Shown: positions 61,513 through 64,000 of the stretch, in pieces
Layout of the letters: each line of letters opens with the position of its first letter
Numbering within the stretch: position 1 is the stretch's first letter
From: Salinibacter pepae
GTDB taxonomy: Bacteria > Bacteroidota > Rhodothermia > Rhodothermales > Salinibacteraceae
DNA: 64,000 nt
Direction of reading: 5' to 3'
Assembly: GCF_947077775.1 (NCBI RefSeq)
Contig: NZ_CAMTTE010000001.1
Span: 682,001-746,000, forward strand
The notes under the pieces: generated by a model
The model's input: the letters and a program-made list of their open reading frames with translations, nothing else
What the model was told of the DNA's origin: nothing
Databases searched by the model: none
Made by a program: the position numbers and the translations under genes

Positions 61513-62751
61513 CTATTCGGGGCCGTCGGGATCCGATGCCGCTTCCGCCCCCACGAGGGAGCGCCAGCCCACCCGCCCCCACCGCTCCGGCGCGTAGCGC
61601 TGGATCCACCGCCGGTCGACCCAGTGCTTGAGCCGGAGGGACCACGTGCGGGCCGTCCACAGGGGGCCCGCCGTCCAGATGGCGCGGCGCGCTCCGGTGG
61701 AGAGCAGCAGCGGCGCGACCGGGTACGGGCGAAAGACGGCCAGGTCCGACGCGACCGGGGCCGAGCCGTCCCCCGCGAGTCGACGTAGGGTGGTGTCGAG
61801 GTTTGCCCGGAGGTCCGGCCCCTGCTTCACGGCGTGCACGCCCACCTTGTCCAGGTTCAACCCCGGAATGGTCCCGCAATCGCCGGCGGCAAAGATGCGG
61901 GGATGGGTGGGGGTGCGCAGGCGCCGGGTTACATGCAAAAAGCCCCGCTCGTCCGTCGACAGCCCGCTTTCACGGAGCAGCGGCGGAGCGACGGCCCCGG
62001 TGCTCCAGAGCACCGCGTCGGGGTGGATCGTGTCGTGTTCGCCCGTGTCCGCTCGCATGTCTACCTGAGCGCGACCTTCGTCGGGTCCGTGCACCTCGTC
62101 GACGGTCGTCGCCGTCCGGAGGGTCGCGCCCCGTTCCCGGAGCAGCCGGGCCGCGTAGGCGCGCATGCCCTCCGGAAACCCCGGCAGGATCTTCCCCGAC
62201 TGCTCCACAATCGTCAGCGAGAGGTCCGCCGCCCGTCCGGCCCCGGCGAACCGTCCCGTGATGTTGAGGGCCACCTCCACCCCGGCTGCCCCGCCCCCTA
62301 CGATCGTCAGGCCGAGCGTCTCCGTCGGGGCGTCGAGCACCTGGTTCAGCTGAGGACGGAGGGCACGGACGCGGTAGATCGGCTTGGTGCCCACCGCGGC
62401 GTCGGGCAGGGCCGGATTCACCCCCCCGACGTCGATCGCCAACACGTCGTAGGGGATGGTGTCCCCCTCAGCCGTCGTGACCGTGCGGGCCTCCGGATCG
62501 AGGGCCGTGGCGCGGGCCGCCACGTGCGTGGCCCCCGCCTCCCGGGCCATCTTCTTCAGGTCCACGCGGATGTCGTCGACCGCATACACCCCGCCCAGGT
62601 GCTCCGGCACCATGCCCGAGTAGTAGAGCCAGCGTTGGGGATCAACGAGGGTTACCTCGACCCCCGCGTCGGTCCATTCCCGGGCATGGGCGAGGCTGGG
62701 CAGCATGGCGTGTCCCCCTCCGACGAGGACGAGATGCAACGGCTCAGACAT
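61513..62751 (-). CDS. FAD-dependent NAD(P)H oxidoreductase, SelD-associated type
   Basis: 412 residues from ATG 62751. Two Rossmann motifs: LVLVGGGHAMLPSLAHAREW for FAD and LTIVGGGAAGVEVALNI for NAD(P)H, and a C-terminal FAD-closing IFAAGDCGTIPG. The YYSGMVPEHLGGVY stretch is typical of the subfamily often fused to selenide-water dikinase (SelD). No SelD is here. It has only one Cys (in AGDCG), so it is not a sulfide:quinone reductase. It follows the DUF2892 gene on the same strand and is probably under the TetR regulator. Confidence 0.87.
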   Translation of the reverse strand: MSEPLHLVLVGGGHAMLPSLAHAREWTDAGVEVTLVDPQRWLYYSGMVPEHLGGVYAVDDIRVDLKKMAREAGATHVAARATALDPEARTVTTAEGDTIPYDVLAIDVGGVNPALPDAAVGTKPIYRVRALRPQLNQVLDAPTETLGLTIVGGGAAGVEVALNITGRFAGAGRAADLSLTIVEQSGKILPGFPEGMRAYAARLLRERGATLRTATTVDEVHGPDEGRAQVDMRADTGEHDTIHPDAVLWSTGAVAPPLLRESGLSTDERGFLHVTRRLRTPTHPRIFAAGDCGTIPGLNLDKVGVHAVKQGPDLRANLDTTLRRLAGDGSAPVASDLAVFRPYPVAPLLLSTGARRAIWTAGPLWTARTWSLRLKHWVDRRWIQRYAPERWGRVGWRSLVGAEAASDPDGPE

Positions 62752-62830: not shown

Positions 62831-63040
62831 TCAGCTGCGCTGCCCGTGTCGCGTCGAGAGCCCCACGGGGAGGTACACAGGGCACGTTCCGACGAAACTC
62901 GTTAGGAGAAACGCCACGGCCCCGACGCCCAGGACGAGCGCCGTGGTGCCGCTGAGGGTGCCCGTGGCGTACAGCACGCCAACCACGAGGGCGGCGACGG
63001 TGCGAAGGATTCGGTCGAGAGAGCCCATGTTCTGGGTCAT
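62831..63040 (-). CDS. DUF2892 (YgaP-like) membrane protein
   Basis: 69 residues from ATG 63040 (MTQNMGSLDRILRTVAALVVGVLYATGTLSG). Two hydrophobic segments and an ending TSFVGTCPVYLPVGLSTRHGQRS with the Cys-Pro turn (TCPxYxPxGxST) of the DUF2892 family. This family is also the C-terminal part of rhodanese YgaP. It probably precedes the FAD oxidoreductase in one transcript (79 bases apart). A TetR operator lies 65 bases upstream of its start. Confidence 0.88.
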   Translation of the reverse strand: MTQNMGSLDRILRTVAALVVGVLYATGTLSGTTALVLGVGAVAFLLTSFVGTCPVYLPVGLSTRHGQRS

Positions 63041-63104: not shown

Positions 63105-63124
63105 GTGAGTGATTGATCACTCAC
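63105..63124. promoter_or_regulatory. TetR operator 1 (upstream of the DUF2892 unit)
   Basis: GTGAGTGA-TTGA-TCACTCAC, an exact 8-base inverted repeat with a four-base spacer, 65 bases from the DUF2892 start. Part of a set of three. Confidence 0.75.
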
Positions 63125-63255
63125 GACGGACACCGGTACCAATGTGAGAGGTTCCGGTAGGGATGCGCGATTCGCCCGACACGACGGAATCGCCCCCCTT
63201 ATTTGAACTCCTCACGAACCGCTGAACCTGCACGAGTAGGCAGCATAGAGTGGTT

Positions 63256-63275
63256 GTGAGTGATCACTCACTCAT
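63256..63275. promoter_or_regulatory. TetR operator 2 (upstream of tetR)
   Basis: GTGAGTGA-TCAC-TCACTCAT: the same arms and the same four-base spacer as operator 1, one mismatch. The first 16 bases also form an exact palindrome. It ends 43 bases before the tetR ATG, so it should allow self-repression. Confidence 0.75.
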
Positions 63276-63318
63276 TCCTCCCTCTATTTGGGGCTTTCTC
63301 TCCCACTCGCCTACGCCC

Positions 63319-63888
63319 ATGACCAAGCGAGATGACATTTGCGAGGCCGCCCTCACCCTCTTTGCCGAGAACGGCATTGAGGCCACGACGACCCGTGAGA
63401 TTGCGGAGCAGGCCGGGGCCGCCGAGGGAACGCTCTACCGCCACTTCGACGGCAAGGCCGACCTCGCCCAGTGGCTCTACCGGCGCTGCCTGAATCAACT
63501 CCGCGACACCCTTACGGACGCCGACGAGGCGACATCGACCCCGACCGATCGGCTGGAGGCCCTCGTGCGCGGTATGTTTGACTTTTACGCCTCGAGGCCC
63601 GCCTCGTGCACCTACCTGCTCTCGGCCCGGGAATCGGGCGCCGTGGGCACGAGTGAGAGCGACGCGCCGCCCTCTCCAGTCCACCTGTTTGCGAGCGTGC
63701 TCGACGAAGGCACGCGGCAGGGCGTCTTTCGGGAAACCTCATCCTCCCTCGTCGCCGGATGGATTCTCGCGATGGTTCAGCGTACCGTTCTCTTTTTGAA
63801 GACCGAGGCCCTTTCGTTGAGCACGCAGGCCGCAATCGACCAGACGGTCAACGCGGCCCGCCGGCTGGCGATGCCCTCTCCGGGCTGA
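63319..63888 (+). CDS. TetR-family transcriptional regulator
   Basis: 189 residues from ATG 63319 (MTKRDDICEAALTLFAENG). The helix-turn-helix is clear: TTTREIAEQAGAAEGTLYRHFDGKADL. The rest is the helical ligand-binding domain of the AcrR/FadR type. It is divergent from the DUF2892/FAD-oxidoreductase unit. Three copies of the same palindrome flank it, including one just after it, presumably in front of a further target gene beyond the window. The inducer is unknown. Confidence 0.92.
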   Translation: MTKRDDICEAALTLFAENGIEATTTREIAEQAGAAEGTLYRHFDGKADLAQWLYRRCLNQLRDTLTDADEATSTPTDRLEALVRGMFDFYASRPASCTYLLSARESGAVGTSESDAPPSPVHLFASVLDEGTRQGVFRETSSSLVAGWILAMVQRTVLFLKTEALSLSTQAAIDQTVNAARRLAMPSPG

Positions 63889-63952
63889 GGCGCGGGGGCG
63901 CCACGACCGTTTCTCCACTACGAACCCGACCCCTCACATGTATTTTCCAGTT

Positions 63953-63972
63953 GTGAGCGAACGATCACTCAC
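63953..63972. promoter_or_regulatory. TetR operator 3 (downstream of tetR)
   Basis: GTGAGCGA-ACGA-TCACTCAC: the same arms and spacing as operators 1 and 2 with one mismatch. It lies 65 bases after tetR and near the right end of the window, so it probably controls the next gene, not shown here. Confidence 0.65.
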
Positions 63973-64000
63973 GCTCAGTCCGCGAATCGGAGGTGCGCTG

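Follow-up and report, generated by a model that had tools for sequence, protein, structure and literature searches.

A TetR-family regulator in Salinibacter pepae with predicted operators at its own gene, an RND efflux operon and a DUF2892/FAD-oxidoreductase unit, and a putative role in sulfide stress

In Salinibacter pepae the gene of a TetR-family regulator is accompanied by three copies of one palindrome, placed upstream of tetR itself, upstream of a divergent DUF2892/FAD-oxidoreductase unit and at the start of an RND efflux operon; these copies are predicted to be operators of the regulator. In the genomes of the family the motif is restricted to those that encode this TetR, and in two relatives it also precedes sulfur genes located away from tetR. 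From these comparisons of sequence we lean, with some reserve, towards a TetR repressor that controls its own gene and a regulon for sulfide/persulfide stress, in the job held elsewhere by SqrR/BigR-type ArsR proteins. The operator set itself is of a common kind, and a TetR placed over targets held elsewhere by ArsR sensors would be the new part. The DNA analyzed is a stretch of 64,000 nucleotides (the window), and the features considered, including the operon that continues to its right, are the following.

61513..62751, minus strand: FAD-dependent pyridine-nucleotide oxidoreductase (Pyr_redox_2, 115.4 bits), second gene of the divergent unit
62831..63040, minus strand: DUF2892 / YgaP-like transmembrane protein (PF11127, 67.7 bits; cut-off 25.3)
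63105..63124, no strand: predicted operator 1, GTGAGTGATTGATCACTCAC, 64 bp upstream of the DUF2892 start, part of a block invariant in four genomes
63256..63275, no strand: predicted operator 2, GTGAGTGATCACTCACTCAT, 43 bp upstream of the tetR start
63319..63888, plus strand: TetR-family regulator of 189 aa (TetR_N, 63.8 bits; cut-off 24)
63938..64000, plus strand: start of a TolC-like outer-membrane efflux gene (OMF) that extends beyond the window (PF02321, 149.3 bits)
63953..63972, no strand: predicted operator 3, GTGAGCGAACGATCACTCAC, most likely within codons 6-12 of the TolC-like gene
L011:2939-8801, plus strand: efflux operon encoding the TolC-like protein, a HlyD-type adaptor (MFP) and an AcrB-type RND permease (PF02321 149.3, PF16576 87.0 and PF00873 549.6 bits)

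The preliminary description of this DNA had reported three equal palindromes with the same four-base spacer and at most one mismatch, and direct reading at 63105, 63256 and 63953 bears this out, with 0, 1 and 1 mismatches to GTGAGTGA-N4-TCACTCAC in operators 1, 2 and 3, respectively. The first two do lie before the DUF2892/FAD-oxidoreductase unit and before tetR, at the distances given above. The third had been placed after tetR; it is indeed downstream of this gene, but it is also inside the start of the next one, which likely begins at the ATG at 63938. When up to three mismatches are allowed in the window, 8 rows are obtained. All of them fall on the three operators, read on either strand and, at site 2, also in an overlapping register; the shuffled window gave a mean of 1.36 rows (sd 1.55). 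This loose count is weak by itself because 8 rows were also reached in 1 of 100 shuffles, and the genome scan is the better test of the motif. In the search of the own genome (3.63 Mb, up to two mismatches), copies with 0-1 mismatch occur at the three window operators only, and the reversed pattern gave no match at the same threshold. The many copies unrelated to promoters that had been named as a counter-sign were therefore not seen in this search. Seven other places carry two mismatches and were not accepted as targets; two of them form a pair (G000:C1:1420928 and 1421036) surrounded by ORFs for small secreted-type proteins. Site 2 additionally contains a perfect spacer-less 16-mer palindrome, rejected as the common motif since it is broken in the other sites.

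The search for the regulator covered 41 genomes, i.e. the own genome and relatives of the genus, family and order. Nine further matches were taken as orthologues, eight from the same GTDB genus (60-97% identity), which includes Salinibacter altiplanensis and two Salinivenus species, and one from another genus (G016, 45%); eight weaker matches (30-33%) were set aside as other TetRs. The strict motif RTGAGTGA-N4-TCACTCAY, with at most one mismatch, was found at 21 places in 10 of the 27 family genomes, exactly the 10 in which the TetR was found, and the reversed strict pattern at none in the 27. The other 17 genomes, several of them incomplete (down to 56%), have neither a strict site nor a TetR match at E 1e-15, the best identity being 26% in two of them. 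For this co-occurrence over 27 genomes Fisher's test gives p 1e-7, a value that overstates independence because the genomes are related. A site is present in the tetR neighbourhood in all 10 genomes, and 19 of the 21 sites are no more than about 1.1 kb from tetR. Across the 21 sites only the N4 register is conserved, and the two central spacer bases are pyrimidine-purine in every one. An intergenic alignment of four genomes shows sites 1 and 2 as conserved blocks, invariant or nearly so, where mean column identity is 69%. The earlier proposal that the palindromes are a TetR binding motif gains support from the co-occurrence (10/10 with TetR, 0/17 without) and from these blocks, and the strict sites are very probably operators of the window TetR. 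That they belong instead to another factor or to a repeat family is highly improbable, given the exact co-occurrence and the presence of a site by tetR in each of the 10 genomes. Weaker copies with two mismatches stand upstream of the OMF gene in G006 and of DUF2892 in G005. A looser pattern allowing GYGA (13 genomes, at most one mismatch) added five places off tetR, one each in G002, G007 and G008 and two in G004; all are GC-rich forms, the reversed control matches in 1 of the 13 genomes, and the five were treated as chance.

At least one further target had been predicted to the right of the window, and the gene right of 64000 turned out to open an OMF-MFP-RND operon, in which outer-membrane factor, adaptor and AcrB-type permease follow in a row as in a tripartite RND pump. 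The permease scores far below the NCBIfam multidrug subfamily cut-offs (454.6 vs 1250). All 9 TetR-encoding genomes of the GTDB genus keep the order TetR-OMF-MFP-RND, counting G005, whose contig ends after 36 residues of the RND protein. In the 6 genomes having site 3 (G000, G003, G004, G006, G007 and G010; the G006 copy departing from the consensus at two positions) the site is preceded by an in-frame ATG at a distance of exactly 15 bp. A later in-frame ATG (L011:3005) is aligned in G000, G004 and G007 only; G003 reads ATA there and has an ATG two codons further, and none follows in G006 and G010 over the stretch read. This later ATG was rejected as the OMF start, GTG or TTG starts being possible as well. 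Because the ATG 15 bp ahead is conserved and the later one is not, operator 3 most likely lies in the coding region, as predicted from the start at 63938. The residues encoded at this place, VSERSL in 5 of the 6 proteins, look like a by-product of the operator. The preliminary description was thus right and understated: the pump, the site in a coding region and the sulfur connection described below come on top of it.

The regulator has the N-terminal TetR helix-turn-helix, the all-helical TetR fold and, in 10 of 10 genomes, a palindromic candidate operator by its own gene; its Pfam matches are TetR_N and a weak C-terminal TetR_C_24 only. The AlphaFold2 model (mean pLDDT 89.5) has its best PDB match in the TetR-family protein 3pas (Z 20.0, rmsd 2.5, 185 aligned residues). 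The fold is shared with the TetR-family FadR of Bacillus (3whb, Z 18.1, rmsd 2.8, 182 aligned), whose operator layout TGAATGA-N4-TCATTCA is similar to that of the window operators; against the NCBIfam FadR model, however, the protein scores 45.8 bits with a cut-off of 200, which places it outside the Bacillus-type FadR group. MtrR is also among the structural matches (Z 17.4, rmsd 3.1, 188 aligned), and AcrR is not among the 50 matches listed.

We propose that the TetR repressor would bind GTGAGTGA-NYRN-TCACTCAY upstream of its own gene, at the start of the pump operon and upstream of the DUF2892/FAD unit, and that the bound protein would keep the three units low; repression with autoregulation is likely. 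At site 3, in the start of the OMF gene, it could block initiation or elongation. A signal would release TetR and turn the three units on together. The candidate with the best support is sulfide-derived stress, from persulfide or another form of sulfane sulfur, for which Cys57 and Cys97 may act as the sensing residues.

A TetR gene beside an RND pump is commonplace, which argues against a special signal in sulfur stress and fits another reading, in which the protein is an ordinary local repressor of a multidrug pump of the AcrR/MtrR type, is released by a lipophilic compound in its ligand pocket, and merely happens to have sulfur genes among its targets in two relatives. This reading has a real but limited chance; the MtrR match, the weak C-terminal match to the generic TetR_C_24 and the own genome, where no sulfur target carries the site, are in line with it. 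Like the window TetR with its predicted sites, AcrR and MtrR are encoded beside an RND operon and have palindromic operators at their own gene and at the pump. In contrast to them, the predicted operators of the window TetR also precede the DUF2892/FAD unit and, in relatives, SQR and PDO-like operons, and one of them is inside the first coding region of the pump operon.

The local reading is countered by three observations, which also support the sulfur-stress regulon. The first concerns the two distal sites among the 21 in the 27 genomes: both are exact matches to the strict pattern, and both are upstream of sulfur-oxidation genes. In S. altiplanensis (G007) a PDO-like gene, followed by TauE, begins about 80-160 bp downstream of the site, according to which start codon is used; its product is a metallo-beta-lactamase/rhodanese protein of the persulfide-dioxygenase kind that scores below the NCBIfam cut-offs. 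In G010 it is 113 bp upstream of a type III SQR (623 bits; NCBIfam cut-off 525), followed by DsrC and a DsrE2-like gene. The second is a gene cluster of Salinivenus lutea and S. iranica, with the order FADox | YeeE-YeeE-PDO-like-TauE-site-tetR-OMF-MFP-RND. Against the sulfur-stress regulon it weighs that only G007 has a separate site upstream of the PDO-like gene, which 12 of the 13 genus genomes carry (upstream DNA covered for 11, that of G005 lying off the contig), and that SQR III occurs in G010 alone. For two more of the 12 PDO-like genes, the site of tetR is downstream of them. It weighs in the same direction that the PDO-like and SQR-like genes of the own genome, about 1.57 Mb from the window locus, have no site within two mismatches in 19.9 kb. 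That stretch (L165, G000:C1:2305000-2324900) carries cytochrome oxidase-like, SQR-like, PDO-like and SulP-like genes without an operator, and an ArsR-type frame, interrupted by a stop codon, about 2 kb from the PDO-like gene.

The third observation is the company of the pump clade. On annotated plasmids 301 records match the pump, and among the 20 best plus 60 spread matches listed identities are either 37-56% or at most 29%. We compared 12 loci of the former group with 7 controls of the latter, using 7 kb flanks and omitting duplicates and unannotated records, with gene tables that are incomplete. A DUF2892 gene occurs within 7 kb of 9 of the 12 related pumps and of none of the 7 controls (Fisher p 0.003), an ArsR gene near 8 of 12 and 0 of 7, and rhodanese or YeeE genes added no extra locus in either group. 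In six of the nine ArsR proteins by related pumps, 66 residues separate two cysteines, as they do Cys50 and Cys116 of sHdrR (PMC12423496). In Azospirillum brasilense, a FAD oxidoreductase-DUF2892 pair is divergent from adaptor-RND-rhodanese genes; the layout resembles that of the window, but its FAD protein, as those near related pumps in general, matches the SQR query rather than the window FAD protein. The three related pumps without DUF2892, in Flammeovirga (55.6%, the nearest among the matches listed), Shinella and Sphingopyxis, have no sulfur marker, and the last two adjoin a TetR gene, which argues against the sulfur-stress regulon. Outside the Salinibacter group, 75 TetR loci (best 80 of 159) have no neighbour matching a query protein besides the TetR, with one exception (adaptor and RND at 26-28% identity).

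PMC12423496 describes sulfane-sulfur ArsR regulators as adjoining sqr, sox, pdo, rhd and shdr genes, RND pumps, and TauE and YeeE transporters. During sulfide oxidation Azospira suillum induces an SQR/RND operon and a DUF2892 gene; a mutant deleted for the operon oxidized sulfide at the same rate, and loss of the DUF2892 gene delayed onset only slightly (PMC5358917). The available portions of PMC10128140 and PMC8879271 hold nothing on a TetR sensor, and in the open-licence literature, judged by title or abstract start, no TetR-family sulfane-sulfur sensor was found. The likeness of the window TetR to ArsR proteins of the SqrR/BigR/sHdrR type consists of the target set (sqr, pdo, rhodanese, TauE, YeeE, RND; PMC12423496) and of a conserved cysteine pair, which in the TetR is at other places. 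The two conserved cysteines of SqrR/BigR-type repressors form a polysulfide bridge, to which the pair of the TetR, absent from the G016 protein, would be a candidate counterpart. The protein family is another one, TetR_N and TetR_C_24 being the sole Pfam matches and the ArsR fold being absent.

A redox-active cysteine pair is a defining feature of SQR. The window FAD protein, similar to TIGR03169 (235.2 bits, below the cut-off of 310), has one cysteine overall and is therefore not SQR-like; the DUF2892/FAD unit was rejected as an SQR unit, which is a further point against the sulfur-stress regulon.

Two cysteines of the regulator are shared by all 9 orthologues of the GTDB genus, namely Cys57 and Cys97, which the model places in helices 4 and 6, respectively; Cys8 is shared by 8 of 9. 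TetR proteins usually respond through a shift of helix 6 relative to helix 4, which makes the pair suggestive and no more. The conserved pair adds support to the sulfur-stress regulon, as does the observation that no pair of cysteines has the 66-residue spacing in any of the 8 ArsR-type matches of the own genome; one of these keeps the ILC cysteine and lacks its partner. ArsR-type matches exist in 13 of 13 genus genomes, so that a TetR in place of an ArsR would be limited to this regulon. We tentatively consider a TetR-family sulfane-sulfur sensor: persulfidation or bridging of Cys57/Cys97 would take it off the DNA and turn on an RND pump exporting sulfur species or adducts, together in relatives with SQR, persulfide dioxygenase and sulfite/thiosulfate transporters; in Salinibacteraceae it would have taken over the target set of SqrR/BigR-type ArsR. 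Should the TetR respond to persulfides, a further family of repressors would sense sulfane sulfur and control the same targets. For a pump clade that keeps company with sulfide-stress genes across several phyla, the analysis supplies a precise predicted operator, a regulon that is small and closed, and a signal open to testing.

In G016 (L042:3927-5558) the TetR has no cysteine, its gene is downstream of ferritin-like and cytochrome c'-like genes, and an exact operator copy is upstream of the ferritin gene; the operator is thus independent of the cysteines, and a site before this pair, and not before sulfur genes, argues against the sulfur-stress regulon. The same two genes, the conserved cysteines, the FAD oxidoreductase target and, in G010, an OsmC-like gene (PF02566) close to the site that precedes tetR would suit a regulator that answers redox or electrophile stress, from quinones, hypochlorite or oxidants, through the same cysteines, with the sulfur genes as one branch. 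We regard this as unlikely, since sqr, pdo, TauE, YeeE and RND are also targets in known sulfane-sulfur regulons (PMC12423496).

Some minor features of the loci were also observed. In G010 (L039:3846-4958) the site upstream of tetR is between the OsmC-like gene and a small gene preceding tetR, which by eye is FmdB-like. In S. altiplanensis (L036:4480-5060) DUF2892 is missing at the locus and operator 1 is still upstream of the FAD oxidoreductase. Between operators 1 and 2 (window 63165-63215) the four aligned genomes share the blocks TATTTGAACTCC, CGAACCG, GAAC and CATAGA, the last directly upstream of operator 2, which have the look of promoter elements.
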